Assembly: GCA_001899635.1 (NCBI GenBank)
Contig: MKVQ01000040.1
Coordinates: 3,915 to 67,914, forward strand
Source: Myxococcales bacterium 68-20
GTDB lineage: Bacteria > Myxococcota_A > Polyangia > Polyangiales > Polyangiaceae
Reading direction: 5' to 3'
Length of the DNA: 64,000 nucleotides
Positions 8,030-29,936 of the stretch are shown here, piece after piece. Within the stretch, counting starts at the first letter, position 1; each line of letters opens with the position of its first letter. Both the position numbers and the translations under genes were made by a program. Below the pieces are notes generated by a model, which was not told the DNA's origin, did not search any database, and saw only the letters and a program-made list of their open reading frames with translations.

Positions 8030-9097
8030 ATGCGGGATAGCAGGCGAAGGGCGAGGGGAGGATGGCTGACGCCGCCTTCGTTGCTCGTCCTGGCGCTGGT
8101 CTTCTCCGCGAAGGTGTCGTTCGCGGCAGAGTCTCCTCCCGTCCGGATCTCGGAGTCGCTTCACCAAGGGTGTCCGAAGCAACCGAGCATGCGCGAGCGC
8201 ATCAAGGCCCATCTCGGGACGATTCGAGATGCGCGTCCCGACGAGTTGGCGATCGAGGTGGCGTTTCGTATCGAGCGCCGTAACGCGCTCAGCCACGGGA
8301 CCGTCACGCTCTCCCTCGGGGGAGTCAGCACGGAACGAAAGGCTTCGTCGAAGTCCTGCGCGGACGTCGTTGCCGCTCTCAGCATGATGGCGGCCATCGC
8401 GATCGGGGAAGAGGCGGAGCGACTCTCGAGCGAGCTGCCGGAAGAGCCGCCCACTGCGGTCGACGAGCCCTCGCCGTTGCCGGCTTCTTCACGAGCCGCT
8501 CCCTCGAGCGACGCGCACCCGGTGCAGGTGCAGCCGATGCCCAGCGCCGCTCGGCCGCAGGCCAAGGCTGGGCATGTCGATCGTCTCAGGGGGGCACTGG
8601 GCACAGGTATCGAGCTCAACGGCAATCGGGAGCTCGTCCTCATGCCGACCGGGTTCGCTCAGCTCACGTTTCCCGCACGGTTCGATCCCGTGGTGAGGGT
8701 AGGGCTGGCGCGAAGCTTTAGAGGTCGGGCGTCGTCGTCTCGTGGCGAGGTGGCGATCCGCTGGAGCGTCATCAAGCTCGCAGGTTGTGCGGACGTTCTT
8801 CGTGCGGAAGCCTTCCGACTCGGGTCATGCCTGGTCGGTGAGCTCGGCCTTTTGGAGGCGGCCAAGGTCGACCCGTTGCCGGCGCGTGAGTTCTCGTACT
8901 TTTGGCTCAGCCTTGGCGCCTCCGCCAAAGCCGCCTGGCGACTGCTTCCGGGCTTCTACATCGAGACGATGGTGGGAGCGCGCGTGCCGGTGACCCAGAG
9001 AGAGCTCTACTTCAACCCGTACACGGAACCGCTCGCGTACAAGAGCCCGCTGGTGGTGCCGTTCGCGGCGGTGAGCCTCGTCGCACAGGTGCCGTAG
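8030..9097 (+). CDS. Cassette A gene 1: secreted/outer-membrane protein, unknown family
   Basis: 355 residues. Start at ATG 8030 gives a basic n-region and the hydrophobic signal LLVLALVFSAKVSFAAES. The N-terminal domain (about 35-140) has a Cys near the start (HQGCPKQPS) and another at KSCADVVAALSMMAAIAI, pattern-matched by the paralogue at 20622 (PAGCPDSG and APLCATLADASAVLIALAL). A Pro/Ser/Ala-rich linker (about 148-195) leads to a beta-rich C terminus (about 200-355) consistent with a small outer-membrane barrel. Always directly before an ECF sigma gene here, so it may be the outer component of a surface-signalling circuit. That role is inference; no named family was recognised. Confidence 0.65.
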   Translation: MRDSRRRARGGWLTPPSLLVLALVFSAKVSFAAESPPVRISESLHQGCPKQPSMRERIKAHLGTIRDARPDELAIEVAFRIERRNALSHGTVTLSLGGVSTERKASSKSCADVVAALSMMAAIAIGEEAERLSSELPEEPPTAVDEPSPLPASSRAAPSSDAHPVQVQPMPSAARPQAKAGHVDRLRGALGTGIELNGNRELVLMPTGFAQLTFPARFDPVVRVGLARSFRGRASSSRGEVAIRWSVIKLAGCADVLRAEAFRLGSCLVGELGLLEAAKVDPLPAREFSYFWLSLGASAKAAWRLLPGFYIETMVGARVPVTQRELYFNPYTEPLAYKSPLVVPFAAVSLVAQVP

Positions 9098-9195
9098 ACG
9101 CGAGCGTCTGCCCCGTCGTGGATGGTGTGGGCGCCCGATTTTCGAGGTGGGCGACGATTTTACTCTTGGCTGCCTGAGCGCACGACATTGCTAAC

Positions 9196-9783
9196 GTGTT
9201 GGTCGCCCTGCCTGCCATCACGAGTCGGTCGTCCGGCACCACCGAGGACATCTCGGGCAGTGCGAGTTCGGCAGACGAACGTCTGCACGACATCGTCGTC
9301 GAATACTACGACTTCGTCTGGCGTTCGCTGCGCAGGCTCGGGGTCACGCCGCCCGAGACGGACGACGCTGCTCAACAGGTCTTCATGATCGTCGCGAAGA
9401 AGTTCGCCGACATCGAGGAGGGCAAGGAGCGGCCGTTCGTCTTCGGCATCGTCATGCGCGTCGCCGCCAATGCTCGTCGAGCTCGGGCCAAGCTTCGTGA
9501 AGTACCCGAGGAAGACGCACCGGACTTAGGCCTCGTTCAGCCCAATGCCGAAGCATCACTCGATCGTGCTGCAGCGCGCGCGGCGCTCGACGAGATCCTC
9601 GGCAGAATGCCGGACGAACGACGCGCGGTACTCGTCCTCTCCGTCTTCGAGGAGCTCTCGCTCCCGGAGATCGCGGCGACGCTCCAGATCCCGGTCACAA
9701 CCGCCGCGTGGCGATTGAAGCGCGCACGCGAAGAGCTCGATGCTGGCATCGCTCGGCTTCGCGCACGAAGGCAAGGAGTCTGA
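9196..9783 (+). CDS. Cassette A gene 2: ECF-type RNA polymerase sigma factor
   Basis: 195 residues, normal for group 4 sigma-70. Region 2 (about 29-90: IVVEYYDFVWRSLRRLGV, DDAAQQVFMIVAKKF) recognises the -10 element and binds core polymerase; region 4 (about 132-182: LPEIAATLQIPVTTAAWRLK) is the -35-reading helix-turn-helix. GTG start at 9196. The next gene begins one base after its stop, so the pair is translationally coupled. Known for ECF factors: held inactive by a co-transcribed partner until a signal arrives. It probably drives this cassette, but I could not identify an ECF promoter with confidence. Confidence 0.88.
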   Translation: MLVALPAITSRSSGTTEDISGSASSADERLHDIVVEYYDFVWRSLRRLGVTPPETDDAAQQVFMIVAKKFADIEEGKERPFVFGIVMRVAANARRARAKLREVPEEDAPDLGLVQPNAEASLDRAAARAALDEILGRMPDERRAVLVLSVFEELSLPEIAATLQIPVTTAAWRLKRAREELDAGIARLRARRQGV

Positions 9784-9784
9784 C

Positions 9785-10573
9785 GTGTCCCAGTTCGAAC
9801 GCGAGTCGCGCCATGTCGATGACGGCGACCAGCTGAAACAGAAGGTTCTCGACTCCGCTCTCGACGATGTTCCTCCGCCGGACGGACGCAAGCGGGTGCT
9901 CTCAGCGCTGAACCTGGTGTCACCATCGGCCCGCGCGACCACGCGTCCGTCACCCCGGGGCGGAGTCGGCGGCCGCTCCAGCCACGTTCTACACGCCGCG
10001 CTCGCCCTCGGGGTCGCCGTCGCGGTCGTCATGACCGCGTTCAACGGTGACGAGCCGGTCGCTACAGAACCAAGGGCCGGAGCTCCAGCGCCTGCCGCTC
10101 CGACCGCGACGACAGCCGAAGAGGCGACGACCGAGGCGCGGGTCGAGCCACCCCCAGCCGCAGTGGCGTCCGCCGCCGAGACCGTTGCTCCACCAACGGC
10201 ATCGGCGAGCAGCACCACGAGCAGTGCGCGCGCTGCGCGTCCGCCGTCGAGCGCTTCCGACGACTCGACGCTCGGTCGCGAGCTCGCGCGTGTATCTGCC
10301 GCTCGCTCGGCGCTGGGTGCGGGAGATGCCGAACACGCGCTGAAGTTGCTCGATGCGTATGACGCAGAGTTCGCTTCGGGCACTTTCTCGGTCGAGGTGT
10401 CCGTGCTTCGAATCGAGGCGCTCGCGCGAGCCGGTCGCGCCGACGAGGCACGACGGTTGGGCAATGAGTTCTTGGCGCACCATCCGCAAGGCGTGCTCGC
10501 GCGTCGGGTCTCGACGACATTGCGAATGGTCGCTCCTCACGAGTCGAATCCGGCGCCTACCCCAAGCTGGTGA
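9785..10573 (+). CDS. Cassette A gene 3: single-pass membrane protein, probable sigma regulator
   Basis: 262 residues from GTG 9785, one base after the sigma stop. Cytoplasmic N terminus (about 1-66, with ESRHVDDGDQLKQKVLDSAL), one transmembrane segment (HVLHAALALGVAVAVVMTAF, about 67-86), an Ala/Pro/Thr-rich spacer (about 90-165), and a helical TPR-like C terminus (SALGAGDAEHALKLLDAYDA, about 190-255) expected in the periplasm. Topology and position match an anti-sigma factor, but the zinc-binding HxxxCxxC motif of ZAS anti-sigmas is absent. The paralogue at 22320 has the same layout. Role as the sigma partner is inferred. Confidence 0.65.
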   Translation: MSQFERESRHVDDGDQLKQKVLDSALDDVPPPDGRKRVLSALNLVSPSARATTRPSPRGGVGGRSSHVLHAALALGVAVAVVMTAFNGDEPVATEPRAGAPAPAAPTATTAEEATTEARVEPPPAAVASAAETVAPPTASASSTTSSARAARPPSSASDDSTLGRELARVSAARSALGAGDAEHALKLLDAYDAEFASGTFSVEVSVLRIEALARAGRADEARRLGNEFLAHHPQGVLARRVSTTLRMVAPHESNPAPTPSW

Positions 10574-10591
10574 CAGCGTCGCCGAATCTCC

Positions 10592-10598
10592 AAGGAGA
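10592..10598 (+). promoter_or_regulatory. Ribosome binding site selecting a TTG start
   Basis: AAGGAGA at 10592-10598 lies 7 bases before TTG 10606. It makes TTG the likely start of the Cys-rich lipoprotein, in preference to the in-frame GTG at 10570 that would overlap the preceding gene and put 12 extra residues before the signal peptide. Confidence 0.6.
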
Positions 10599-10605
10599 CT
10601 CAAAG

Positions 10606-11832
10606 TTGAAACTCCGCACTCTCGGACCTGCTCTCGCACTGACGCTGGCGTGTCTTGCTCCGTCTTGTTCGAGCGCCGACTCGCTTGGCGACGGACGCGA
10701 TTCCGGCGCGCCCGCCCAAGAGTTCGCGCCTACCGACGCGGGCACGGCGACGCTCGATGCCCCCGCAACCCTCACGTCGTACTGTCCCTCGGACAAATGT
10801 CCTGAGGGTTGGACGACATGCCCGAATTCTCGCTTTCCGTGCGACGTGAACCTGCGAACGGACCGCGAAAATTGTGGCGCCTGCGGCTCGCGCTGTCCCG
10901 CTCCCATGACGGACTTGTCTGCTCGGGAGATCTTCGAGTGCGTCGAGGGTAGCTGCGCCATGACGTGCGGGACCGTGACCGCGCTGGATTGCGACGGCAT
11001 CGTCGACAACGGCTGCGAGACTCCGACGAACGATCCGAACAACTGCGGCGCGTGTGGCAACGTCTGTACGGATCCAGCCAAGCCCTGCATCGTGAGAACG
11101 GATGCCCCTGGTGGCGCCGCCTGCGGCTGTCCGGCCGGACAGCTGGCGTGCCCGATCCGTCCCGGCGGGCCCTCCCGCTGTCTCGAGGTCGATGCGAACG
11201 ACAGCAACTGTGGAGCATGCGGCAACGTCTGCCCGTCGAATCCCGACGGCGGAGCGCTCCCACAAAATGCATATCATGGATGCCTCCGCCGCGAATGTGG
11301 GCATCTGAAATGCCGGGCGAATACTGGCGACTGCAACGGCGACCTCGTCGACGCGGACCGCGGTGACGGCTGCGAGACGGACCTGACGACGAACGAGCAC
11401 TGCGGAGCATGCGGAAATGCTTGCGCTCCGGGTGAGGCCTGTCGACGGAACTCTACCGGCGTCTACGAGTGCCTGTGCCCGCCGGGGCTGACCTACTGCG
11501 GCAACACGTGCGTCGACCTCGCTACGAACCCGACCAACTGTGGCTCTTGTGGAGTTCTATGCAAGGACACGGTCATCCAGGGAGGTCTCTATAATGCGAA
11601 GACGGAGATCGGCATATGTGTCTACGGCATGTGCAAGCGCCAGTGTGTCGCCGGTCGCGCGGATTGCAACGGGAACTCCGAGGACGGTTGCGAGGTAAAC
11701 ACCAACAGCGATCCTCGAAATTGCGGCGGGTGCGGTGTCGAGTGTGACGCTGCCGCTGGTCAGGCGTGCGTGGGTGGGCGATGCGCGGTCGAGCCATGCG
11801 AACAACTCGATGGTGGGCCGGTGACGCGATGA
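10606..11832 (+). CDS. Cassette A gene 4: Cys-rich repeat lipoprotein (NCGxCG repeats)
   Basis: 408 residues from TTG 10606 (strong ribosome site). Signal peptide with two candidate lipobox Cys (LTLAC, Cys16; LAPSC, Cys21). After a short linker come many Cys pairs built on the repeat NCGACG-N-x-C (RENCGACGSRC, NNCGACGNVC, SNCGACGNVC, EHCGACGNAC, TNCGSCGVLC, RNCGGCGVEC) alternating with DCDG/DCNGD-type calcium-like loops and GCE(T/V)N. This is a disulfide-rich extracellular stalk typical of myxobacterial surface proteins; sequences of this kind have no established function. Its stop overlaps the next start by ATGA. The paralogue at 23078 keeps the same repeats. Confidence 0.8.
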   Translation: MKLRTLGPALALTLACLAPSCSSADSLGDGRDSGAPAQEFAPTDAGTATLDAPATLTSYCPSDKCPEGWTTCPNSRFPCDVNLRTDRENCGACGSRCPAPMTDLSAREIFECVEGSCAMTCGTVTALDCDGIVDNGCETPTNDPNNCGACGNVCTDPAKPCIVRTDAPGGAACGCPAGQLACPIRPGGPSRCLEVDANDSNCGACGNVCPSNPDGGALPQNAYHGCLRRECGHLKCRANTGDCNGDLVDADRGDGCETDLTTNEHCGACGNACAPGEACRRNSTGVYECLCPPGLTYCGNTCVDLATNPTNCGSCGVLCKDTVIQGGLYNAKTEIGICVYGMCKRQCVAGRADCNGNSEDGCEVNTNSDPRNCGGCGVECDAAAGQACVGGRCAVEPCEQLDGGPVTR

Positions 11833-13073
11833 GAGCACGATACTTCACCCTTGCCGGGATCCTGGCGGCGTCGGGCGCTGCAGCACTCAGCGCTTGCGCG
11901 ACTCATGTCGACGAATTTCTGGCGGAGCCGGCTCCCGAGGTCGTCGTGCCGGCGCCCGAAGCGGAAGCCGGAGCCGATGCTGCTGCGCCGTTCGACGCGA
12001 GCGATGCCGCGCCGTGCGCCGATTGCGAGTACTTCCCCGAGGTGTGCACCGACGACGTCCTCTGCCAGAATGGCCTCTTTGGCACCGACGGGGGGCTGGA
12101 TCCCAGGGCGCAGGTCAACGTCATTCGGGGGCGCTCTGCAAGCGACGTGTGGATCGCCGGAGCGCTCGGAGCGCTCGCTCACTTCGATGGCGTCTCGTGG
12201 ACGCCCTCGGACCTGGGAGTACGCGAGACCGTCCACGCCCTTTGGCTCGACGACTCGGGGGAAGTTTCGGCAGCCTCGCTCCAGCGGCTCTTCAGCCGTG
12301 GGCTCGACGACCCGAACGACGCAGGCGTGTCGGACGGCGGCTGGACATCCCGCACGACGCGCACGCCGTCGGCTGAATATCGGAGGTGGTCGAGGACCCT
12401 CGTCTCCGGGTGGTCCTTCCCTGGCTCGGAGTGGCGATGGGGAGTGACCACGAATCACTGTGCCTCGTCCACCTGCTTGGTCTCGGACCCGAGCCCGACG
12501 AGCGGCGTCTGGCGATTTCGTTCTTCGCCCGTCGCGCCAGGGTCCTTCGATATCGCTGACGTAATCAGTAAGAACATGTGTGCGAGGATTTCGTGCGGCG
12601 ACATGATGAGCATTCACGGCTCGTCGGCGAATGATCTCTGGGCTGTCGGGAACGGCGGCGCTGCGGTTCGAATCACTGAGGCAGAGAGCAATGCGCCGAC
12701 GATCCTGGCCTTCAACACTCAGACATTGAGCACGCTCCATGGGGTGTGGGCGGCCTCCGAATCCGAGGCATGGGCGGTCGGTGCGCAAGGCCTCGTTCGG
12801 CACTACTCGGGCCATCCCGTGCTGTGGGACATCGTGTCGGACGTGCCGACCAACGAAGATCTCTTCGCTGTATGGGGCTCCTCGCCTTCCGACGTCTGGG
12901 TCGTGGGTGATGCGGCGACTGTCCTGCACTACGACGGGGTGACGTGGTCGCGTGTGAAGATCGCGAGCCTTGGGGCTCGCCGGCCCAAGCTGACCGCCGT
13001 CTGGGTGCCATCGCCAGGGCACGTCTGGATCGGCGGTCAAGGGGTCCTGCTCTCTCTAGGAGGCAAGCCGTGA
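11829..13073 (+). CDS. Cassette A gene 5: beta-propeller-like lipoprotein
   Basis: 414 residues; ATG 11829 overlaps the previous stop (ATGA). Lipobox ALSAC (Cys23), then CADCEYFPEVC, a Cys cluster shared with the paralogue at 24280. The body has repeats with core S-x-(S/N)D-(V/L)W-(I/V/A)-x-G: RGRSASDVWIAGALGALAHF, GSSANDLWAVGNGGAAVRIT, GSSPSDVWVVGDAATVLHYD. Blades of this type form propellers in secreted proteins. Ends in GGQGVLLSLGGKP, identical in layout to the paralogue. Function unknown; coupled by GTGA overlap to gene 6. Confidence 0.75.
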   Translation: MRARYFTLAGILAASGAAALSACATHVDEFLAEPAPEVVVPAPEAEAGADAAAPFDASDAAPCADCEYFPEVCTDDVLCQNGLFGTDGGLDPRAQVNVIRGRSASDVWIAGALGALAHFDGVSWTPSDLGVRETVHALWLDDSGEVSAASLQRLFSRGLDDPNDAGVSDGGWTSRTTRTPSAEYRRWSRTLVSGWSFPGSEWRWGVTTNHCASSTCLVSDPSPTSGVWRFRSSPVAPGSFDIADVISKNMCARISCGDMMSIHGSSANDLWAVGNGGAAVRITEAESNAPTILAFNTQTLSTLHGVWAASESEAWAVGAQGLVRHYSGHPVLWDIVSDVPTNEDLFAVWGSSPSDVWVVGDAATVLHYDGVTWSRVKIASLGARRPKLTAVWVPSPGHVWIGGQGVLLSLGGKP

Positions 13074-14437
13074 AGCGAGCACTCTCGATCTCCATCATCT
13101 CCCTCGTCCTCGCGGTCGTGGGAGCGTGCGCTACGTCGGAAGACGGCACGCCGGCGGCTTCTCCCGATCTGGACTCCGACCCGATCACCGTTGGCGATGC
13201 GGCGTCGAACGAAGACGCGGCGTTCGACGCGGGTGCCGACGCCGACACGGATGCGAGCAATTGCAGTTCGGCAGGTTGGTGCGTGACGTCCATCCCCGAT
13301 TCGGACCTCACGTTCAGAGACATCTGGGCGCTCCCCGGGCGTGCCTTCGCGGTCGCAGAGAGCCCGACGCTCGGGGTCAAGGTGCTCGAGTGGAAGGACG
13401 AAGACGCGAAGTGGTCTTACATCGATGACAATACGCAGAACGAGTCGGGCCGAGGCAGCTACGCCGGCAGAATATGGGCGCCCAGCGAGGATGAAGTCTA
13501 TTACGCTGTAGCGCCTCGAACCATCTACCACGGCAAGCGCAGCGACTCTCCGACTGCCGCCTGGTCGTGGACGTATTCGCAGCTGGAGAATCGTGTCCCG
13601 ACGTATGCCCCCGAGCCCCAACATCCGGGCCACTACGTTGGTCGGCCTTGGTATCAGATGTGTCACTGCGGTGGGGTCAACGGGCTCGTGACCGGTGAGC
13701 TCGGGGATATCCCGGCATTGGGTGTCTTCGGGACGAGCTCCGACGACGTCTACGCGTTCTACGCCAACACGATCTATCACCTATCGAGCGACGAGGCTGG
13801 GGCGCGCACGTGGCAGGTAGAGTACGTTGCGGACGATCGCGATCGCGACGACGAGCAGCTCGTCTTCTTGAGCGCAACCGCGGTGAGTCGAGACGACGTC
13901 TGGTTCGGGGGTGGGCGAGGCGGTAGGCCTACCGACAACCGTATGTGTCCCATCGCCGTGCGTAGGACGCCTTCGGGATACGTCCGCGTTGCGGACGGCG
14001 TCGGCGTCACTGGCGCGACGCCATGTGCAGCGCGGAGCGACACACTCTCCATCGGCGGCGCGGCGGGCTGGCTTGCAGATCTCGATGTCGACTCCACGAA
14101 CGCGGTCGTCGGCCTCAAGGCAGCCCGCGAGGTCGTGCGCATTACGGCGGATGGAGACACGTATTCGGCCGCGATTTCGGCGCCGTTTCCCATGCCGCTC
14201 TCTCTGAAGCCGCTGCGGTCGCTCTCGGCGGTTCCGGACGAGTCGACCCTCTGGATCGGCGGGACCAACCTCGTCGCTCGGAGCGACGACGCCTGGGACG
14301 GCGGCTCATACCAAATTTCCACGATTTCGCTCAACGGTGGGTGGCTGGAAACGCCAATCAACCGAGTTCGAGGTTCGTCCAAGAATGACCGCTGGGCGGT
14401 TGGAGTTCGCTATGCACTACACAAGACGACTCCTTGA
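13070..14437 (+). CDS. Cassette A gene 6: second propeller-like lipoprotein
   Basis: 455 residues. GTG 13070 is chosen because AGGAGG (13058-13063) lies 6 bases before it and because it gives a clean lipoprotein signal (lipobox VVGAC, Cys20). A Cys pair SSAGWCVTS is conserved with the paralogue at 25467. The body has WxxxxxDVYxF/VxxxTIYH elements (IWAPSEDEVYYAVAPRTIYH, GTSSDDVYAFYANTIYHLSS, RDDVWFGGGRGG), suggesting a propeller; the C terminus NDRWAVGVRYALHKTTP closely matches the paralogue. Its last 26 bases overlap the start of the RCC1 gene. Confidence 0.7.
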   Translation: MKRALSISIISLVLAVVGACATSEDGTPAASPDLDSDPITVGDAASNEDAAFDAGADADTDASNCSSAGWCVTSIPDSDLTFRDIWALPGRAFAVAESPTLGVKVLEWKDEDAKWSYIDDNTQNESGRGSYAGRIWAPSEDEVYYAVAPRTIYHGKRSDSPTAAWSWTYSQLENRVPTYAPEPQHPGHYVGRPWYQMCHCGGVNGLVTGELGDIPALGVFGTSSDDVYAFYANTIYHLSSDEAGARTWQVEYVADDRDRDDEQLVFLSATAVSRDDVWFGGGRGGRPTDNRMCPIAVRRTPSGYVRVADGVGVTGATPCAARSDTLSIGGAAGWLADLDVDSTNAVVGLKAAREVVRITADGDTYSAAISAPFPMPLSLKPLRSLSAVPDESTLWIGGTNLVARSDDAWDGGSYQISTISLNGGWLETPINRVRGSSKNDRWAVGVRYALHKTTP

Positions 14438-15809
14438 ACGGCGCTGGTCGGGCGCACTCGTCGTCGCCTCCCTGACATCTGCAGGTGCCGTCGCGAGCTG
14501 TGCGAGCTCGGACGAGGAGCCGCCCGCAGTCGCCGATGTGCCCGACGCCGCGCCCAGCGCGCCGTCGGTCCCCGACGCGACCGTCCCGGATGCGCCAGAG
14601 GAGCGAGACGCTGCTCCCTTCGACGGCGGCCCGCTGCCCGTGGTCTGCGCGGGGACACCCTGCGCGATGGCGCTCGTGACGACCCGCGGAGCCGGCGTCT
14701 CCGATCGCGGCGAGGGATTCTGTGTGCTGCTCCACGACGGTGCGGTCGCGTGCTGGGGCGCAGGCGGGGCCGGACAGCTCGGTCGCGGTGCGGAGGCCGG
14801 CGTTGGTGACAGCGCGTCGCCCGAGCGCGTGTCCGGTCTGACGGAGATCGTCGCGCTCGACCACACCTGCGCGGTCGACAAGGCCGGCGCCGCCTACTGC
14901 TGGGGGACCGGCCCGTTCCTTCGCAGCACTTCGGCGGCCACCACCACGGAGCGCACCCCCGTCAAGCTCGACATCCCGAGCGTGACGAAGGTTGCCGTCG
15001 GCGTCTCCACGGGCTGCGCCTTGAGCGATGGACGAGTTCTCTGCTGGGGATCGAACGTGAACGCGCAGATCGCTCCCCTCGAGTCTCAAGCCCCCTCCGC
15101 CGTCCTACCGGTGACGGAGCGCGCTCTCCCCGAGGGCGCGGCGGTTCGAGATCTGGCCGTCGGCGATGCGACCTTCGCCATTCGCGTCGACGGTACCGTC
15201 GTGACGTGGGGCGCGAACCCTCCGCTCGCGCGCGTTTCGTCGCTGCCCCGCGATCCGTATCCGATGCCGAGCCTCCTCGTCGGAGTCACGACAATCGACC
15301 TTGCCGAAGACAACGCCTGCACGACCGTTGCGGGGGTCGGTCAGTGCTGGGGGACCATCATCGCCAGGGAGTCCGAGCTGCAGCAGGGTGTCAAGCGCCT
15401 CGACCGAGCGCTCCCCAATCCAGTCGCCACACCGGAGCCCGTCGTCCAGATCGCCACGACGCGACCGAGCACGGCCATCGATCCCGTCCCGGTGCGGGAG
15501 GGGATCGGATGGAGCGCGCCCGTGCAGCCGCAACGCTGGTGCGCGATCGGAGCATCTGGCGCCGTGTACTGCTGGGGATACAACGCGAGCGGCCAGGCGG
15601 GCGACGGGACGAAGGAGTTTGCATACCGAGCGGTCAAGGTCGTTGGTCTTCCGGAGCCCGCGGCGCAGGTCAGGACGACCGCCGACGCGACGTGCGCGTT
15701 GCTCACCACCGGCAAAGTCTACTGCTGGGGCACGAATTATTACGGACAGCTCGGCAACGGCACGATCCGAATCCCCAGCCTCACACCGCAGGAAGTGGTG
15801 CTGCCTTGA
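14412..15809 (+). CDS. Cassette A gene 7: RCC1-repeat lipoprotein
   Basis: 465 residues. ATG 14412 lies inside the end of gene 6 (26-base overlap), and the same overlap exists in cassette B, which supports this start. Lipobox AVASC (Cys30), Asp/Ala/Pro linker, then RCC1 blades with the signature CWG-x-G...GQLGRG and CALxxxGxVYCWG (VACWGAGGAGQLGRG, AAYCWGTGPFLR, VYCWGYNASGQAGDG, VYCWGTNYYGQLGNG). RCC1-type seven-bladed propellers bind proteins in other organisms; in bacteria they appear in exported proteins of unknown ligand. The stop and the IgGFc start share one base (TGATG). Confidence 0.85.
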   Translation: MHYTRRLLERRWSGALVVASLTSAGAVASCASSDEEPPAVADVPDAAPSAPSVPDATVPDAPEERDAAPFDGGPLPVVCAGTPCAMALVTTRGAGVSDRGEGFCVLLHDGAVACWGAGGAGQLGRGAEAGVGDSASPERVSGLTEIVALDHTCAVDKAGAAYCWGTGPFLRSTSAATTTERTPVKLDIPSVTKVAVGVSTGCALSDGRVLCWGSNVNAQIAPLESQAPSAVLPVTERALPEGAAVRDLAVGDATFAIRVDGTVVTWGANPPLARVSSLPRDPYPMPSLLVGVTTIDLAEDNACTTVAGVGQCWGTIIARESELQQGVKRLDRALPNPVATPEPVVQIATTRPSTAIDPVPVREGIGWSAPVQPQRWCAIGASGAVYCWGYNASGQAGDGTKEFAYRAVKVVGLPEPAAQVRTTADATCALLTTGKVYCWGTNYYGQLGNGTIRIPSLTPQEVVLP

Positions 15810-17768: not shown

Positions 17769-17769
17769 A

Positions 17770-21677: not shown

Positions 21678-21720
21678 CAACTTTCTGAACGATTTGCGGG
21701 GCTGCCGGAAGCTTACGGGT

Positions 21721-22323
21721 ATGACGCTCGGTGCCGGCGAGGCCTGGATTGAAGGTCGGCTCTCCGGCGCACCCCAAGCCGTGACCACGCCATCGGCCCA
21801 GGAGTTTGCAGAGCTCTACAGAACGCATTGGGCCTACGTGTGGAAGAGCGCGAGGCGGCTGGGCGTGCCAGCCGAAGAGGTGGAAGACGTCGTTCAAGAG
21901 ACCTTCCTCACGCTTCACCGTGTTCTTCATGACCAGGAGCCGCAAAGGTCGCTGAACGGTCTCCTCTTCTCGATCCTCCTTCGGATCATTCAGAGGCAAC
22001 GACGCTCGAAGCGTCGGCGGCTTGCCGTGCGCGAGGAAGTAGCTCTCGCCCATCAGGCCATCGAGCCAATCGATCCTGGTCCTGACAAGACCGCCGAGGC
22101 TGCGGAGTCGCTCCGCATCCTCGAGGAAATCATGGACCGACTCGATCCGGCCAAGCGCGTCGTTCTCGTCTTGGCGGAGCTCGAGGGGAAACCGGTCGTC
22201 GAGATCGCTGAAATCCTGGGCATCAACATCAACACCGCTGCCACCCGCTTACGACGTGCGCGCGAGTTCGTGGAGGCGAGCCTTGCCCGCTACGAGGCAC
22301 GTGAGCGACGGAGGTTCAAGTGA
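21721..22323 (+). CDS. Cassette B gene 2: ECF-type sigma factor
   Basis: 200 residues. ATG 21721 (GGAAG upstream) is preferred to in-frame codons inside the previous gene. Region 2 about 30-92 (LYRTHWAYVWKSARRLGV, EEVEDVVQETFLTLHRVLHD) and region 4 about 133-185 (PVVEIAEILGININTAATRL). Length and domain order are normal for ECF factors. Its stop overlaps the GTG of the membrane regulator by four bases. Region 4 differs from that of the cassette A sigma, so the two probably read different -35 sequences. Confidence 0.88.
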   Translation: MTLGAGEAWIEGRLSGAPQAVTTPSAQEFAELYRTHWAYVWKSARRLGVPAEEVEDVVQETFLTLHRVLHDQEPQRSLNGLLFSILLRIIQRQRRSKRRRLAVREEVALAHQAIEPIDPGPDKTAEAAESLRILEEIMDRLDPAKRVVLVLAELEGKPVVEIAEILGININTAATRLRRAREFVEASLARYEARERRRFK

Positions 22324-23081: not shown

Positions 23082-24283
23082 CCATGAAGCGCTATCTTTT
23101 CGGAGTTGTCCTTTTTGTGCCGCTCCTGACGATACCCTCATGCGGGTCGGAGCGCGTCTTCATCGGCGCCGACTGCGAAACAGGGTTCTGCGACGCTGGG
23201 ACCGCATCGAGCTTCGGGGGCCCCGACGCGGGGGATGCGGCCGCGCCTGAGCAGATTAGCGACCTCACCTCGTATTGCCCATCGAACAAGTGTCCCGAGG
23301 GATACACGAATTGTCCGAATTCGCGATTCCCCTGCGACGTCAACTTGCGGACGGACCTGCGCAACTGTGGCGCGTGTGGTGTCGTCTGCCCGCTCCCCAC
23401 GGGGCGCGAATGGTACGAGTGCGTGGACGGGCACTGCGTTCCCCAATGTCTGTCCCAGCCTCCGACCTTCGATTGTGATGGGCTCCCCGACAACGGCTGC
23501 GAAGCCAATATCTCGAACGACTCTTGCGGGGGGTGCGGAATCAAGTGCACGGACCCCGCCAAGCCGTGTGTGAAGCGGGATCTGTCGAACGACTACGGTT
23601 GCGGGTGCAAAGATGACAAGCTTCTGTGTTTTGGAAGTTGTGTCGATGTTACGACTCACGACAACCATTGTGGTCGATGCGGGAACTCATGTCCTCGCAG
23701 GGGAGATGGGGGTGTCCTCGACCCGAATGCGCATATGTACTATGGGTGCCTGGACAGCCAGTGCGGTCGTCCGAAATGCGACAGCAACTGGGGTAACTGC
23801 GATGGCGACTTCGGGAACGGGTGTGAGGCGAGTCTGCGTACGGCCGAAAACTGCGGCGCTTGCGGGAACGCGTGCGCTCCGGGGGAGGAGTGCAAAATCG
23901 ATCCCTATGTCGGGCCCAAATGCATGTGCTCCGACGGAAAGACGTTCTGCCCGCAATCGCCCGACCTTCTCTACGGCTATTGCGTCGATACCGCCTCCGA
24001 CCCGGACAACTGCGGGGGATGTGGCAACTCATGCGTCGTGAGCGCAGGATCCGTCATTGGGACGTGCGTGAATGGAATGTGCGTCAGGCAGTGCGCTGCC
24101 GGACGAGCCGATTGCAACGGGAATACGATCGATGGCTGTGAGGTGAACTCCGATAGCGATCCCCGAAACTGCGGCGGATGCGGAATCACCTGCGATGCGG
24201 TTGCCGGTCAAGCGTGCGTTGGCGGTAGGTGTGTGGTGGAGCCGTGCGATCGAGACGCGGGCAGCGCCGGAGGTCCGCAATGA
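23078..24283 (+). CDS. Cassette B gene 4: Cys-rich repeat lipoprotein
   Basis: 401 residues, ATG 23078 (a second in-frame ATG at 23084). Lipobox TIPSC (Cys22). The segment LTSYCPSNKCPEGYTNCPNS matches cassette A almost residue for residue, then NCGxCG repeats (RNCGACGVVC, DSCGGCGIKC, NHCGRCGNSC, ENCGACGNAC, DNCGGCGNSC, RNCGGCGITC) and DCNGNTIDGCEVN. Disulfide-rich extracellular scaffold. It ends with AGQACVGGRCVVEPC as in cassette A. Translationally coupled to both neighbours. Confidence 0.8.
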   Translation: MTMKRYLFGVVLFVPLLTIPSCGSERVFIGADCETGFCDAGTASSFGGPDAGDAAAPEQISDLTSYCPSNKCPEGYTNCPNSRFPCDVNLRTDLRNCGACGVVCPLPTGREWYECVDGHCVPQCLSQPPTFDCDGLPDNGCEANISNDSCGGCGIKCTDPAKPCVKRDLSNDYGCGCKDDKLLCFGSCVDVTTHDNHCGRCGNSCPRRGDGGVLDPNAHMYYGCLDSQCGRPKCDSNWGNCDGDFGNGCEASLRTAENCGACGNACAPGEECKIDPYVGPKCMCSDGKTFCPQSPDLLYGYCVDTASDPDNCGGCGNSCVVSAGSVIGTCVNGMCVRQCAAGRADCNGNTIDGCEVNSDSDPRNCGGCGITCDAVAGQACVGGRCVVEPCDRDAGSAGGPQ

Positions 24284-25470
24284 GCAGGCGATGGTTGGTT
24301 CTCGTCGCATGCGCAACGGCGTGTGCTTCGACCGAGGTACTCGACGGTTCGGGCCCTCCCGACGAGTCACGCGGCGTGCCGGAGCCAGGGCCTTCACTGG
24401 ACGGCGGGCTCGACGCCGCGAGAGAGGTCGACGCGTGCCCCGATGCCGACTGCGAGTACTTTCCCGAGGTCTGCTCGCCCGACAGCCTCTGTCCTAACGG
24501 TCCCTTCGACTCGACTCCTTCCGGCGATGGCCTCGACCCGCTTCTGATGATCAACGTCATCCGGGGTCGCTCGACCAGCGACATCTGGGCAGCCGGCGCG
24601 ATGGGAGCCATTGCTCACTTCGACGGAACATCCTGGACACGGTCGGATCTGGGCAGCCGTGAGACGCTGAAGGCCCTTTGGCTCCTCGATTCGGGCGAGG
24701 TCACGTTCGGTACGTTCTCACGCACCTACACGCGCGGGCTGGAGGTCGGTGACGCCGGAGCAGGAGCCTCGGCCGGAGGTTGGACTCTTGGTGTCCCGGC
24801 CATCCCGCCCGACCTTCGCCCCACCCAGGTCCAGCTTGGATCTACCTGGAGCGCGCCTGGCTCGAAGTGGCTTTGGTGCGCTGCGACGCCCATATTTCAG
24901 GGCAGTGGCTTGTGGCGAATGCGTCGTTCGCCGGAGGCGGTGCTCGCGGTGGAGGCCGGCGGCGCCGCGGACGTCTGCAGTGTCGAGCCATGCGGCCGGA
25001 TGAACAGCATCCACGGCGCGTCAGCGAACGAGTTGTGGGCGGTCGGAGAGGTCGGCTCTGCAGTGCGAATCACCGGAGCGGATGGAGACTCGCCGGTCAT
25101 CCAGGGGTTCAACACCCAAACGTGGAACGCTCTGAACGGAGTCTGGGCGGCGTCCCCCACCGACGTCTGGGCTGTCGGCGCGGGCGGAACCGTCCGCCAC
25201 TACACGGGCGACGCGATGCTCTGGGAGACCGTTGCGGGCGTCCCGACGAACGAAGTTCTGAGGGCCATATCAGGTTCGTCATCGAGCGATATCTGGGCCG
25301 TCGGTGATGCCGGGATCGTACTTCACTATGACGGCAAGAGCTGGTCGCGGGTCAAGGTTGCGGGCCTCGGTCCGCGTCGCCCGGACTTCACGACCGTCTG
25401 GGTCGCGGCGCCTGGCCACGTCTGGGTAGGCGCGCAGGGCGTGATTCTCTCCCTCGGAGGAAAGCCATGA
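24280..25470 (+). CDS. Cassette B gene 5: beta-propeller-like lipoprotein
   Basis: 396 residues; ATG 24280 within ATGA overlap. Signal peptide RRWLVLVACATACAS with lipobox Cys11 or Cys15, then CPDADCEYFPEVC as in the cassette A paralogue. Repeat elements RGRSTSDIWAAGAMGAIAHF, GASANELWAVGEVGSAVRIT, SPTDVWAVGAGGTVRHYTG, SSSDIWAVGDAGIVLHYDG indicate a propeller of about five or more blades. C terminus VGAQGVILSLGGKP. Same size class and ends as the cassette A gene; middle region diverged. Confidence 0.75.
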   Translation: MSRRWLVLVACATACASTEVLDGSGPPDESRGVPEPGPSLDGGLDAAREVDACPDADCEYFPEVCSPDSLCPNGPFDSTPSGDGLDPLLMINVIRGRSTSDIWAAGAMGAIAHFDGTSWTRSDLGSRETLKALWLLDSGEVTFGTFSRTYTRGLEVGDAGAGASAGGWTLGVPAIPPDLRPTQVQLGSTWSAPGSKWLWCAATPIFQGSGLWRMRRSPEAVLAVEAGGAADVCSVEPCGRMNSIHGASANELWAVGEVGSAVRITGADGDSPVIQGFNTQTWNALNGVWAASPTDVWAVGAGGTVRHYTGDAMLWETVAGVPTNEVLRAISGSSSSDIWAVGDAGIVLHYDGKSWSRVKVAGLGPRRPDFTTVWVAAPGHVWVGAQGVILSLGGKP

Positions 25471-26786
25471 GGCTGATGTCCCTGATGTATTGCGGGGCAC
25501 TCGCGCTCGGCGCTGCCATGTCCGTCTTCGCGTGCGCGGCGTCCGGCGGCGAACGGTTGGAGCTCCCTTCACCTGATTCAGGGGACGGCGTGACCGTGAT
25601 CGAGGACGCCGGAGCGGCCCTGTCCGATGCGCCCGCGTCGGAGCCCGACTCGTCGCCCATCGACGGGCCGACGTGCAGTGACGCAGGTTGGTGTCGAACC
25701 GAGTTGCCCGACGTAGATCTCGTCCTCAAGGACATCTGGCCGGTCGGCGCACATGCGTTCGCGGTCGCGGATAGCCCGACCCTCGGCGTCAAGGTGCTCG
25801 AGTGGTCGGATACCAGCTCCAGCTGGCAGTACATCGACGACAGCTCTCAGAACTCCATCGGCGTCGGCAAATACGCCGGAAGGCTCTGGGCGCCGAACGA
25901 GAACGAGGTCTACTACGGAGTTGCGCCTGGCTACATCTATCACGGGACACGGCCGGTCCCGCCCGCGACGACGTGGGGATGGATACGGCATAGGCTCGGT
26001 GGCAACAGCGGTGCCGGGAACGTCGATCCCCAGGCCGGATATCCGAGCTACTGGAAGATCGGCGCCAACTATCCGGCGTTGGGGGTCTGGGGTACGAGCG
26101 CCAGTGACGTCTACGCGTGGTTCTCGAACACCATCTATCACTGGACGAGCGTCGACGGCGGAGCGCCGGAGTGGGTCCCCGAATACGTAGCGGACGATGC
26201 CTCGGCGGCGACGGAGCGGATGTTCTTTCTTGCTGCGGCAGGTACGGGGCCTGACGGGATCTGGTTCGCCGGCGCGCGGTCTCGGCCGAGTGCGGCGTGT
26301 GCCGTCATCGTGAGAAAGACCAGTGCGGGATATGAACGGATCGCGGATGGAGCTCTCACGAACGATTTCGCTCGGTGCGGACCGCGAGCGGGGTCGCTGT
26401 TGATCAGCGGAGGGGAGGAAGGATGGCTCACCGACATTCAGGCCACGTCGGCGGATCGGATCCTCGGCCTCAAGGGAGGTCGTGACTTGGTCAGAATCTC
26501 GGCCGCGGGGGACGGGTACGAGGTCCGCGTCTCTCCGGTCCCCTTGCGAGTCTCCCCGAGGCCGTTGAGCTCGTTCTGGCGAGCGCCCGACAGCATGTGG
26601 CTTGCTGGCTGGGGGATCGTCGTTCGAGCCACCGAGAGCGTCTGGGACGGTGGTGCATACGAGGTCTCGACGATTTCGATGGCCGGAGCGCCGCTCGCTC
26701 GACCGCTCTACCAAGTTCGCGGAACTTCCGACACCAAGCTCTGGGCCATCGGTGAACGCAATGCGCTCCACAAGACGACTCCTTGA
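25467..26786 (+). CDS. Cassette B gene 6: second propeller-like lipoprotein
   Basis: 439 residues; ATG 25467, ribosome site GGAGGA about 25457-25462 and ATGA overlap. Lipobox SVFAC (Cys23), conserved Cys pair SDAGWCRTE. It shares with the cassette A gene the blocks FAVADSPTLGVKVLEWSDTS, KYAGRLWAPNENEVYYGVAP, GTSASDVYAWFSNTIYHWTS and the C terminus ALHKTTP. Function unknown. The RCC1 gene starts 26 bases before its stop, exactly as in cassette A. Confidence 0.7.
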   Translation: MRLMSLMYCGALALGAAMSVFACAASGGERLELPSPDSGDGVTVIEDAGAALSDAPASEPDSSPIDGPTCSDAGWCRTELPDVDLVLKDIWPVGAHAFAVADSPTLGVKVLEWSDTSSSWQYIDDSSQNSIGVGKYAGRLWAPNENEVYYGVAPGYIYHGTRPVPPATTWGWIRHRLGGNSGAGNVDPQAGYPSYWKIGANYPALGVWGTSASDVYAWFSNTIYHWTSVDGGAPEWVPEYVADDASAATERMFFLAAAGTGPDGIWFAGARSRPSAACAVIVRKTSAGYERIADGALTNDFARCGPRAGSLLISGGEEGWLTDIQATSADRILGLKGGRDLVRISAAGDGYEVRVSPVPLRVSPRPLSSFWRAPDSMWLAGWGIVVRATESVWDGGAYEVSTISMAGAPLARPLYQVRGTSDTKLWAIGERNALHKTTP

Positions 26787-28131
26787 TAGATATTCAACCA
26801 TCGCTGTTCTTCTCGTCGCCAGTCTGGCGGCAGGTGCCGCTGGTGTCAGTTGTTCGAGCTCGAGCGACGGCAGGGGACTCGCTCCGGAAGACGCCGGTAC
26901 GGAGACGTCGACAGCGGATGATGACGCTGCCCCATCCGACGGCGGGGGCGGCGATGAGATGAGGGATGACGCGGCTCCGCCGCCCTTCGATGGAGGAGCT
27001 CGTGCGGTCATCTGCACGACGGATCCATGCGCGACGTCGCTCGTGACGACGATCCCGCTCAGCGACTCCGATCGCGGTGAGGGATACTGCGCGCTCCTCG
27101 GCGACGGCACGGTGGCGTGTTGGGGCGCAAACACGGCCGGGCAGCTCGGCCGTGGTGATGACGCCGGCACCGACGACGATCCGACGCCTGGGCGCGTGGT
27201 CGGGCTCTCAGACGTCGAGCGACTCGATCACACGTGTGCGCTCGACAAGAGCGGCAGCATTTGGTGCTGGGGCACGGGACCGTTCCTCCGCAATGACGCC
27301 GGCGCGCGGACGACCGAGCGGACACCGATCAAGTTGCCGCTTCCGCCCGCGGACCACGTCGGGCTCGGAGCAGAGGTCGCCTGCGCGTCGGTCGACGCCG
27401 GCATCTTCTGCTGGGGCAGAAACCTGAACGGGCAACTTTCGCCGCTTGCGGCAAACCCCGCATGGGCGACGCTCCCGCCACAACCGATCTCCATCCCGAA
27501 CGGAGCGCCGATCCGAGACCTCCTCGTGGGCAGAGCCTCGTTCATTCTCCGCGACGACGGCGAGGTGTCGAGCTGGGGCGCGAACCCGCCGCTTGGCCGG
27601 GTCTCGTCGCTCAGCCCGGATCCGTATCCGCTTCCGATTGCGCTTGGCGGCATCTCTGCGATCGACGTGACGAGCGGGAGCGCGTGCGCCACGACGGGCG
27701 GAGTCGGCTATTGCTGGGGAACACTCGTCGGCGGTAGCTCACCGCTCGATCGCGCCCTGCCCGAGCCGGTCGCCGCACCGGAGCCGCTCGTTCAGATCGC
27801 CACGACGACCGCCGGAGTCACCGTCGAGTCCAATACGACCATCATTCGCCCGCAGCGTTGGTGCGCCGTGGGCGCGTCGGGCGCGGTCTATTGCTGGGGA
27901 TTCAACGAGAGTGGCCAGGCGGGCGACGGGAGCAAGGCGAACGCGTACACCGCCGTCAAGGTTCAAGATCTGCCGACGAGCGCGGCACAGGTAAGAACGA
28001 TGCCCGATTCGACGTGTGCGCTTCTCACGAACGGTAAAGTGTATTGCTGGGGCGCGAACTATTACGGACAACTCGGAAATGGCAAGCTCAGGGTGCCGAG
28101 CGTCGTCCCGCAGGAAGTGGTGCTGCCATGA
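26761..28131 (+). CDS. Cassette B gene 7: RCC1-repeat lipoprotein
   Basis: 456 residues from ATG 26761, inside gene 6. Lipobox AGVSC (Cys31) and acidic Asp/Gly linker. RCC1 blades: VACWGANTAGQLGRGDDAG, IWCWGTGPFLRNDAG, IFCWGRNLNGQLS, VYCWGFNESGQAGDGSKA, VYCWGANYYGQLGNG. Layout is the same as the cassette A gene, including the short blade without a Cys (EVSSWGANPPLGRVSSL). Stop overlaps the IgGFc start (ATGA). Confidence 0.85.
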   Translation: MRSTRRLLDRYSTIAVLLVASLAAGAAGVSCSSSSDGRGLAPEDAGTETSTADDDAAPSDGGGGDEMRDDAAPPPFDGGARAVICTTDPCATSLVTTIPLSDSDRGEGYCALLGDGTVACWGANTAGQLGRGDDAGTDDDPTPGRVVGLSDVERLDHTCALDKSGSIWCWGTGPFLRNDAGARTTERTPIKLPLPPADHVGLGAEVACASVDAGIFCWGRNLNGQLSPLAANPAWATLPPQPISIPNGAPIRDLLVGRASFILRDDGEVSSWGANPPLGRVSSLSPDPYPLPIALGGISAIDVTSGSACATTGGVGYCWGTLVGGSSPLDRALPEPVAAPEPLVQIATTTAGVTVESNTTIIRPQRWCAVGASGAVYCWGFNESGQAGDGSKANAYTAVKVQDLPTSAAQVRTMPDSTCALLTNGKVYCWGANYYGQLGNGKLRVPSVVPQEVVLP

Positions 28132-29936
28132 AGCACATGACGATGAGCCGCGCGGTCGGCATGATGATCTGCGTCGCGTCGGCCGTGGCGAGCGCGGGGG
28201 CATGCTCGAATGACCGCGACGGGTTCACCCCCAATGCGCAAGGGATCCTTCCCGAGGATGACGCGTCCACCGTGCCGGACGCCCCGGACTGCCGCCTCCA
28301 GTGCTCGCTCGACGGCCGCTCGGTCATCGAGACGTGCACGGGGAGCGTCGTCGAGACGTGCGCAGCCGATCTCGCGTGCGGGGCCGGACGATGTCAGGAT
28401 CCGTGCGCCGCGGCGGCGGCGGATCGAAGCTCGAACGGCTGCGACTTCTACTTTCAGATGCCGCGTATGGACAAGAGCTATCCCCATAGTTGCAATGCCG
28501 CGTTCCTCGTCAACGCATCGAACCAGCCTGCCGAGGTCCTTCTCGAACGCGATGGGGTCACGATCGACGTCTCGAAGTCGATCTTTCGAACCGAGCCGGG
28601 CAGTGCCACGCTGATCTCTCACCATGGGCCGATCGAGCCGGGGGAGAGCGTCATTCTCTTTCTGTCGGATTCTGCGCCGGGGACGACGTATCCCGCCGGG
28701 AGTCATTTCATCAAGTGTCCGGCCGGAGTGACGCCCGCGACGATCGACGACAAGGTTCCGCATAGGACCGGCATCGGTTCCTCGTTCCGCCTCAAGAGCA
28801 GCATGCCGGTCGCGCTGACATCCATGTATCCGTTCGGCGGAGCGGCTTCGTACGTACCGACGGCCACCCTCGTCCTGCCGGTCTCGACGTGGGCGACGGA
28901 GCACGTCATCGTCAACGGCTGGGCGGCTAGCCGATCGGGCTCACCGTCCGCGCAGATCGTGGCGTCCGAAGACGATACCGAGATCACGATCCTGCCGAAG
29001 AAGGACATCCAGAGCGGTCGAGGCGTAAGCGGTGGGCTCGCCCACGAGCCCGCGAAGTATCGACTTGCACGAGGACAGTTCTTGCAGATCGTGCAGGAGG
29101 AGGAGCTCTCCGGAAGCACCGTCGTCTCGAACAAACCGACGACCGTCTTCGGTGGGAACTCGTGCGCCTTCCTTCCCACGACGGCCGGAGCCTGCGATGT
29201 GCTCTCGCAGCAAATTCCGGCGTTCCAGCAATGGGGATCCGAGTACGTCGGGGTCGCCTATCGCCCACGCGGGGGCAACGAGCACGAGCCCGTGCCGTAT
29301 CGAATCGTCGCCGCAAGGGATGGCACCCGCCTCGATTACGACCCAGCGATTCCGCCGGGCGCGCCGACCACGATGAGCGCCGGCGAGGTGGCGATGTTCC
29401 GTCAGGGAACAGGGGATGCGTTCGTCGTCCGAACGCAAGACGTCGAGCACCCGATCTACGTCTCCGCCCACATGACCGGCGCCGACGGCGATACCTTCTC
29501 TGCGCCGAACTACAAAGGGGCTGGTGATCCGGAGTTCGTGAACATCGTTCCGGCAGGCCAGTATTTGAGCTCGTACAGCTTCTACGCAGATCCCACGTAC
29601 GCGGAGACGTCACTCGTCATCGTCCGAAAGAAGCTCGGCGCCGAGTTCAAGGACGTCTGGCTCGAGTGTGCCGGCGATCTGACCAAATGGACGCCCGTCG
29701 GGACGCGGGGCGAGTATGAGTTCACCAGGGTCGATCTCTCGCGTGGGAAGGGGCCCGGCGACAGCTTCGGCGATGGCCCGACCACGAAGGTCTGCCGAAC
29801 TGGCCTGCAGCGCATGCGGAGCGAAGGTCCATTCACCGCCACGTTGTGGGGGTGGGACTCATACGCGAGTTACGCCTATCCGGGTGGAACTGCCCAGCGA
29901 AAGCTCGTCGAGACGCCGCTCAAGCCGGTCAACTGA
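28128..29936 (+). CDS. Cassette B gene 8: IgGFc-binding-domain lipoprotein
   Basis: 602 residues; ATG 28128 overlaps the RCC1 stop, AGGAAG upstream. Lipobox AGAC (Cys26), Cys-rich segment CRLQCSLDGRSVIETCTGSV, then the IgGFc-binding domain: LTSMYPFGGAASYVPTATLV, SEDDTEITILPKKDIQSGRG, SNKPTTVFGGNSCAFLPTTA, QIPAFQQWGSEYVGVAYRPR, and the terminal YASYAYPGGTAQRKLVETPL identical to cassette A. Last gene of the cassette; no terminator hairpin was seen after it. Confidence 0.82.
   Translation: MKHMTMSRAVGMMICVASAVASAGACSNDRDGFTPNAQGILPEDDASTVPDAPDCRLQCSLDGRSVIETCTGSVVETCAADLACGAGRCQDPCAAAAADRSSNGCDFYFQMPRMDKSYPHSCNAAFLVNASNQPAEVLLERDGVTIDVSKSIFRTEPGSATLISHHGPIEPGESVILFLSDSAPGTTYPAGSHFIKCPAGVTPATIDDKVPHRTGIGSSFRLKSSMPVALTSMYPFGGAASYVPTATLVLPVSTWATEHVIVNGWAASRSGSPSAQIVASEDDTEITILPKKDIQSGRGVSGGLAHEPAKYRLARGQFLQIVQEEELSGSTVVSNKPTTVFGGNSCAFLPTTAGACDVLSQQIPAFQQWGSEYVGVAYRPRGGNEHEPVPYRIVAARDGTRLDYDPAIPPGAPTTMSAGEVAMFRQGTGDAFVVRTQDVEHPIYVSAHMTGADGDTFSAPNYKGAGDPEFVNIVPAGQYLSSYSFYADPTYAETSLVIVRKKLGAEFKDVWLECAGDLTKWTPVGTRGEYEFTRVDLSRGKGPGDSFGDGPTTKVCRTGLQRMRSEGPFTATLWGWDSYASYAYPGGTAQRKLVETPLKPVN

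Follow-up and report, generated by a model that had tools for sequence, protein, structure and literature searches.

Triad and pentad modules of a repeated eight-gene cassette are re-assorted with each other in a Polyangiaceae genome

The DNA analyzed here is a 64,000-nucleotide stretch of the genome of Myxococcales bacterium 68-20 (the window; contig C40, positions 3915 to 67914). It carries two gene cassettes, A and B, in which genes for an outer-membrane-like protein (OMP), an extracytoplasmic function (ECF) sigma factor (SIG), and a single-pass membrane protein (TM) form a triad that precedes a pentad of five lipoprotein genes (CYS, PRO1, PRO2, RCC, and IGG). These are two of at least 127 cassettes on 35 contigs of the same genome (G000; 11,892,454 bp on 52 contigs), which together amount to 1,145,481 bp, or 9.6% of the genome. 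We found that the cassette consists of two internally linked modules, the triad and the pentad, that are re-assorted with each other, a finding that is new here, and that the junction between the modules lies near the start of CYS. As for what the cassettes do, we propose, at a probability of roughly 0.5, that each is a stimulus-output unit, with the triad as input and the pentad as output, and that the modules are re-assorted by recombination.

Pairwise identities among the cassettes of this genome fall into two blocks. Spearman coefficients ranged from 0.68 to 0.82 within the pentad and from 0.38 to 0.43 within the triad, and from -0.03 to 0.11 between genes of the two sets. Forty pairs (37 cassettes) have pentads that are at least 65% identical, and the median SIG/TM identity of these pairs (28.7%) is like background; SIG/TM identity reached 45% or more in 2 of the 40, L073/L084 and L101/L106. 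Cassettes L073 and L077 illustrate the pattern, with identities of 71% for CYS, 86% for PRO1, 84% for PRO2, and 89% for both RCC and IGG versus 21% for OMP, 29% for SIG, and 26% for TM. The reverse case is represented by L050/L158 (SIG, 72%; TM, 57%; mean pentad, 31%). Pentads were less than 40% identical in 7 of the 18 pairs with SIG/TM identity of at least 60%, and 35 pairs combined SIG/TM identity of at least 52% with pentad identity below 42%. Trees built with FastTree divide the genes in the same way. The two pentad types (62 and 52 of 114 cassettes) are separated by a single change on the IGG, RCC, and PRO1 trees and by 32 changes on the SIG+TM tree. Eight SIG clusters require 7 changes, the minimum, on the TM (n = 49) and OMP (n = 47) trees but 29 changes on the IGG tree (n = 49), which is hardly better than chance (shuffled mean, 32.6; shuffled minimum, 29).

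The triads are more diverged overall (median pairwise identities of 32% for SIG, 26% for TM, and 20% for OMP), as they would be if the triad simply evolved much faster than the pentad and no reassortment had taken place. We rejected this explanation and regard it as extremely improbable, since it is contradicted in both directions, by the 35 triad-near/pentad-far pairs and by SIG clusters whose fit is perfect on the trees of TM and OMP but not on that of IGG.

The position of the junction was read from DNA alignments and from CYS itself. In 8 of the 13 pairs examined, homology of 79 to 88% sets in 28 to 181 nt into CYS and stops close to the IGG stop codon, at points from 4 bp upstream to 86 bp downstream of it. 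The alignment continues upstream at ~74 to 76% in L132/L135, L097/L098, and L101/L106, and two pairs picked for their close triads align throughout. When CYS was divided into 14 bins, the first two were unrelated in close pentad pairs (dN of 1.00 and 0.56) and the third was conserved (0.06). Likewise, residues 31 to 60 of CYS correlate with the pentad (0.41) and not with the triad (0.02). Scores for the CYS N terminus, which vary with its length and were obtained for the 72 of 137 CYS proteins with the motif pattern, had medians of 85 for triad-near pairs (n = 11), 26 for pentad-near pairs (n = 88), and -81.5 for distant pairs (n = 44).

Cassettes of other genomes provide a further comparison. 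Among the 22 that have a triad, the best triad match and the best pentad match lie in different G000 cassettes in 11, of which two (L175 and L176) are close to tied and a third (L183) is judged by TM alone. The pentad of L186, for instance, is 86 to 91% identical to that of L142, and its triad is closest to that of L130.

A number of results weigh against free reassortment or against a sharp junction. Close triads tend to have somewhat similar pentads, which are at least 45% identical in 10 of the 18 close-triad pairs (median, 48.5) compared with 24.7% of all 6786 pairs. Some linkage between the modules thus remains, and it is also visible in a Mantel test of SIG/TM against pentad identity (rho = 0.076, P = 0.014, n = 117) and on the SIG+TM tree, where shuffled pentad types required 37.6 changes (standard deviation, 2.7) and 32 or fewer in just 8 of 300 shuffles. 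Eleven of the 22 cross-species cassettes retain their pairing, with the same G000 cassette as the best match for both triad and pentad; one of these, L182, shares a flank with its counterpart L119 (92% over 1.4 kb). Within Labilithrix sp. ACE_MYX5 (G003) alone, rho was 0.34 for SIG-IGG and 0.35 for OMP-IGG (78 pairs each), and the picture was mixed, with values of 0.07 for TM-IGG and 0.08 for SIG-RCC. Replacement of a pentad in place found no support in the flanks of five ACE_MYX5 loci compared with 11 G000 flank stretches. Residues 1 to 30 of CYS track the triad weakly (0.11, versus 0.05 for the pentad). The junction is also blurrier when approached from the triad: among 14 of the 35 triad-near/pentad-far pairs, after removal of alignments that extended more than 400 nt into CYS, homology ends 54 to 111 nt inside CYS in 6, 9 to 112 nt before it in 7, and 293 nt inside it in 1. 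Because the closest pentads are joined to unrelated triads and the closest triads have somewhat similar pentads, the asymmetry suggests that pentads, not triads, are the copied part.

The cassettes behind these comparisons were called with iterative profiles of the eight genes over 130 regions around 131 IGG places. A CYS-to-IGG cassette was present in 127 regions, and L094, L159, and L160, in which no CYS was called, were dropped. The count is a lower bound because cassettes were collected through IGG, with candidates and regions left out (the best 150 of 173 IGG candidates were scored, and 131 of 140 matches were used, with 9 weak or partial ones dropped). The OMP search had 455 candidates, of which the best 150 were scored; of the resulting 139 rows, 135 were used and 4 second pieces were dropped. 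The choice of lipoprotein starts favored lipoboxes. In the 127 cassettes, OMP was called in 102, SIG and TM in 118 each, PRO2 in 123, RCC in 124, and CYS, PRO1, and IGG in all, and 92 cassettes have all eight genes. Ordered by stop codon, the called plus-strand genes follow the same order in 127 of 127 cassettes and therefore in all 92 complete ones. The recurrence of the order elsewhere, which the initial annotation had put forward as a check, is thus established in this genome, and cassettes also occur in Labilithrix ACE_MYX5 and MYX7. A search of the genome returned 63 strong copies of PRO1 and many weaker ones, 140 IGG matches, and 77 matches for PRO2, including split ones. Each of the 63 strong PRO1 copies is followed on its own strand by an IGG no more than 7 kb away; with this and the constant order in 92 of 92 cassettes, chance co-occurrence of the genes was rejected.

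Of the cassettes, 66 are on the plus strand and 61 on the minus strand; 104 are solitary, and the others lie in 10 runs of two to four. Their genes are tightly packed, with a median gap of -4 bp for SIG-TM (exactly -4 in 51 of 117), CYS-PRO1 (80 of 127), PRO1-PRO2 (103 of 123), PRO2-RCC (28 of 121), and RCC-IGG (64 of 124) and wider medians for TM-CYS (+32 bp) and OMP-SIG (+118 bp). The triad is inverted and divergent from the pentad in L114, L121, and L189. Reinspection of both strands, including the region behind IGG, recovered the order SIG-TM-OMP in L137, a SIG in L045, and an OMP further upstream, inverted, or just downstream in 13 of the 25 cassettes in which none had been called. OMP lies directly behind IGG on the same strand, with none called before SIG, in L036, L037, L125, and L154. 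No triad was recognized within ~3.7 kb upstream of the pentads of L054, L102, L109, and L143. OMP and ECF gene pairs apparently near contig ends (G000 C43:746991, C46:34440, C3:234684, C52:2037, and C16:2133) are possibly cassettes truncated in the assembly, which makes a higher true copy number probable. L160 (G000:C9:51995-55568) holds two tandem IGG genes and no called CYS, with an OMP/ECF pair a few kilobases away.

In the window, translation and BLASTP comparison of A with B bore out what the initial annotation had described, eight shared gene types in one common order, at approximately the positions it gave. Best local identities between A and B were 23% for OMP, 30% for SIG, and 35% for TM and rose to 50% for CYS, 51% for PRO1, 43% for PRO2, 52% for RCC, and 61% for IGG. 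The accompanying description of A and B as tandem duplicates did not hold. They are separated by 3 kb and a divergent pair of genes for a major facilitator superfamily transporter and an AraC-family regulator, and each is closer to other cassettes than to its neighbor. In a comparison of 137 cassettes, the nearest pentads to that of A are L162 (from ACE_MYX7, G006), L170 (from ACE_MYX5), and L045, at 59% each, and the nearest to that of B is L033, at 63%. Between their triads, identity is 27%, which is the background level. A recent tandem duplication as the origin of the two was therefore rejected.

All genes of A and B are on the plus strand. The OMP of cassette A (8030 to 9097) has a signal peptide, a periplasmic alpha/beta domain, a Pro-rich linker, and a predicted eight-stranded OmpA/OmpX-like barrel; that of B spans 20622 to 21677, and both starts are uncertain. 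An AlphaFold2 model of the OMP of A from 24 sequences (mean predicted local distance difference test score, 81.6; predicted TM-score [pTM], 0.55) combines an alpha/beta domain with a barrel at the C terminus that has eight main strands, and its best Foldseek match is OmpA (E = 8.8e-06, TMt = 0.68), with Ail, NspA, and OmpX also near. SIG (A, 9196 to 9783; B, 21604 to 22323, start uncertain and placed at 21781 by the family-model rule) is an ECF sigma factor with regions 2 and 4. In A it matches PF08281 at 46.1 bits and TIGR02937 at 61.5 bits, and region 2 is just below the Pfam cutoff (23.2 versus 24); TIGR02937 passes in both A and B. TM (A, 9740 to 10573; B, 22320 to 23081) overlaps SIG and is probably its anti-sigma factor. 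It has a single hydrophobic segment in 110 of 118 cassettes, and in A a short cytoplasmic N-terminal part is followed by a C-terminal part of BamD-like tetratricopeptide repeats (TPR), which the family profile also matches to BamD (E = 1.9e-05). Taken together, the triad looks like a unit of ECF sigma factor, anti-sigma factor, and outer-membrane protein.

In the pentad, CYS (A, 10570 to 11832; B, 23078 to 24283) is a Cys-rich lipoprotein that is above the Stig1 cutoff in both cassettes, and in A it matches the NCBIfam MXAN_6577-like model below the cutoff (77.5 of 100 bits). Its signal peptide and linker form the junction zone of cassette A (10606 to 10776), immediately ahead of an SYCPS motif at 10777; the corresponding motif of B is at 23270. 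PRO1 (A, 11829 to 13073; B, 24244 to 25470) is a lipoprotein with propeller-like W/G repeats; it weakly matches propellers of the Ycf48-like and tectonin 2 kinds. PRO2 (A, 13070 to 14437; B, 25467 to 26786), a second putative propeller-like lipoprotein, is without a Pfam match in A. RCC (A, 14412 to 15809; B, 26758 to 28131) has RCC1 repeats, and IGG (A, 15806 to 17599; B, 28122 to 29936) has an IgGFc_binding domain (E = 9.7e-100 and 2.2e-103). Pfam thus recognizes an ECF sigma factor, RCC1, and IgGFc_binding (PF17517) in each cassette. PF17517 is present in all 27 IGG members scanned, including the lipoprotein at 100 to 1908 (plus strand), which closes a third cassette, L141 (match, C40:4050-5810; E = 1.5e-125). 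The genes of L141 are labeled CYS-PRO1-PRO1-RCC-IGG, and the contig edge cuts it upstream of the window.

A lipobox was found in 542 of 628 pentad genes (CYS, 93 of 127; PRO1, 113 of 127; PRO2, 112 of 123; RCC, 106 of 124; IGG, 118 of 127). In Escherichia coli, Asp at position +2 of a lipoprotein counts against sorting to the outer membrane. Its rarity here (4 of 542) points, by that rule, to the outer membrane. The IGG model is mostly beta (pTM, 0.83). The top eight Foldseek rows for it had TM values of no more than 0.15, and VIA-align gave Z scores of 7.9 for 1nc7 (residues 248 to 361) and 4.7 to 6.3 for Ig-like adhesin and pilin domains (approximately residues 97 to 251), all below 8 and thus perhaps merely a common arrangement.

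In Pfam scans of A and B and NCBIfam scans of the eight proteins of A and the SIG and TM of B, no enzyme, transporter, or toxin domain was recognized, and PADLOC anti-phage models matched none of seven cassette A proteins (all but SIG). The first of these results bears on an explanation in which the cassettes are nutrient units resembling the polysaccharide utilization loci (PULs) of Bacteroides, the triad sensing a glycan and the pentad capturing it. Bacteroides PULs with ECF/anti-sigma pairs are, like the cassettes, many paralogous loci with their own sigma factors and surface lipoproteins, and the logic would be the same; the profile match of PRO1 to a tectonin propeller (E = 0.002) also fits. 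The cassettes differ in that no transporter, TonB receptor, SusC/SusD, or hydrolase was recognized in A and B, in that most copies have the same eight genes, and in that regulator and payload are shuffled. We therefore consider glycan capture unlikely.

Median dN/dS in 11 close pairs was 0.45 for CYS, 0.34 for PRO1, 0.45 for PRO2, 0.41 for RCC, and 0.31 for IGG. Bins 11 and 12 of the 14 CYS bins had dN/dS of 0.26/0.27 and 0.35/0.29, with dN close to or above dS, and represent a possible diversifying region. Such stretches near 1, in genes with values of 0.31 to 0.45, would suit bet hedging akin to antigenic variation, in which pentads are interchangeable coats, few of them expressed per cell and their diversity maintained against phages or protist grazers, and triads mainly supply every coat with a switch of its own. 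The very high copy number and the re-pairing of triads and pentads are in keeping with this as well. However, the sigma factors are a diverse set (118 fall into 68 clusters at 60%) and do not form one expression site, and we judge bet hedging somewhat unlikely, though the strongest of the rivals to the stimulus-output reading.

ECF sigma factors usually autoregulate. A putative promoter of the SIG of cassette A, recognized from stacked upstream regions, lies at 9153 to 9191 on the plus strand, with GACGATTTT (9153 to 9161) and GACATTGC (9184 to 9191), and SIG may autoregulate from this element between OMP and SIG. Exact copies of the 8-mer GACGATTT number 16 in the 250-bp regions that surround the starts of SIG (n = 125), against 0.6 expected, and by eye the second half of the motif in the OMP-SIG gap differs by sigma cluster. 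Downstream of IGG, a terminator scan returned a weak folding excess (24 of 127 with z < -2 versus 10 of 127 for the control, with mononucleotide shuffles). Two points count against the regulatory part of the proposal. The exact 8-mer is present in just 16 of 125 sigma upstream regions, so that the motif is found in part of the copies, and the anti-sigma assignment is based on position, one transmembrane segment, and a far-subthreshold match to an anti-sigma model in A alone (E = 0.002; 18.2 of 100 bits), with no NCBIfam match for the TM of B.

In the proposed stimulus-output unit, the OmpA-like barrel and its periplasmic domain would sense something at the outer membrane, and the signal would pass to the periplasmic TPR of the TM protein and lead to release of the ECF sigma factor. 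The sigma factor of each triad would then turn on its own pentad, five cotranslated lipoproteins that may assemble at the surface into a complex used in recognition or adhesion. A copy of a pentad would come to lie behind another triad by homologous recombination, close to the conserved CYS motif on one side and around the end of IGG on the other, and the lineage would therefore keep drawing new pairings of “when” and “what.” We infer the sigma/anti-sigma pairing, the surface localization, the complex formation, and the recognition role of the cassette proteins. In its fullest form, which we advance tentatively and with less confidence, the proposal amounts to combinatorial sensing and display, with more than 100 envelope-sensor/sigma modules and more than 100 five-lipoprotein modules re-paired near an anchor inside one gene. 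If so, exchange of modules, and not point mutation, would change which signal raises which surface complex, possibly even inside populations, and the cassettes would be a bacterial case of combinatorial input-output wiring. The ~118 sigma factors with their likely partners may be a natural set for studying the insulation of such pairs. They would also offer a reason for the many ECF sigma factors of this genome, as 100 of the 150 PF08281 matches listed are cassette sigmas (best 150 of 443 candidates scored).

Known systems resemble the cassettes in part. FecI-FecR-FecA cell-surface signaling, assigned to ECF242 in PMC9239204, likewise joins an ECF sigma factor, an adjacent membrane protein, and an outer-membrane protein in one unit, with coevolution of the sigma factor and its partner as described in that source. 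The cassettes differ in having an eight-stranded OmpA-like barrel (in the model of A) in place of a TonB-dependent receptor with a signaling domain, a periplasmic TPR domain, a five-lipoprotein payload, and at least 127 copies. Polymorphic toxins and the SitA proteins of myxobacteria are also modular, diverse lipoprotein/toxin families shaped by recombination, as far as described in PMC8546572 and PMC3482391. In the cassettes, by comparison, the modules are whole operon halves, and no toxin domain was recognized in A and B, with immunity genes and other copies not screened. MXAN_6577-like Cys-rich, RCC1, and IgGFc_binding proteins are domain relatives of single pentad members. Literature searches returned no report of the five pentad types together and no named system of this composition. 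We know of no counterpart, and our searches turned up none, in which a tenth of a bacterial genome lies in one repeated operon with re-paired regulators and surface payloads.

The distribution of the cassettes is narrow. The 11.9-Mb genome of the window shares its genus with Labilithrix metagenome-assembled genomes (MAGs). Across the family (108 genomes from 48 genera), CYS matched at E ≤ 1e-30 in 8 of 12 genomes of this genus and in none of the 96 others (at most the best 16 places per genome). Near-full-length PRO1 matches were limited to this genome, ACE_MYX5, and ACE_MYX7 (58 genomes; at most the best 31 places per genome), and among 377 genomes of the phylum, CYS matched at E ≤ 1e-25 in the genome itself and, weakly, in one other, G267 (best 4 places per genome). 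IGG had 38 matches in ACE_MYX5 and 11 in ACE_MYX7, some of them partial. Of 80 named loci, from which records of the window's own genome were possibly excluded, 26, from ACE_MYX5, ACE_MYX7, ACE_MYX8, and one Polyangiaceae MAG, contain a cassette or much of one; the remaining 54 are PRO1-like propeller matches, a few with stray weak SIG, TM, or CYS matches. Confinement to one genus within the family and copy numbers from 0 to at least 127 would be natural if the operon had no selected function and its amplification were selfish or neutral, as would the broken pieces, which include a split PRO1 in L055, a split RCC in L040, short IGG fragments, and OMPs with an internal stop at C43:625190 and C23:304607. 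Most of the genes are open over their full length, though, and dN/dS is below 1, and amplification of this kind seems to us quite improbable.

Some observations concern the surroundings of the cassettes and related families. The region upstream of one ACE_MYX5 cassette, L178 (L178:3903-5198 and L269:9538-10827), resembles the upstream flank of L091 (70 to 73%; 70% over 732 bp), although the triads are not best matches. G034, a genome of the same family, had 343 first-look CYS candidates, with none at threshold among the best 16 scored, and perhaps holds another expanded Cys-rich family. In the window, the transporter and AraC-family genes between A and B (18288 to 19565, minus strand, and 19691 to 20473, plus strand) belong to families that differ from those of the cassette genes. 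Upstream of A, an open reading frame at 6025 to 7512 (plus strand), which we take to be SBBP-like, encodes a lipoprotein-like product with repeated GxDAFVxKYDxxGxxxWTRQFG-like units.

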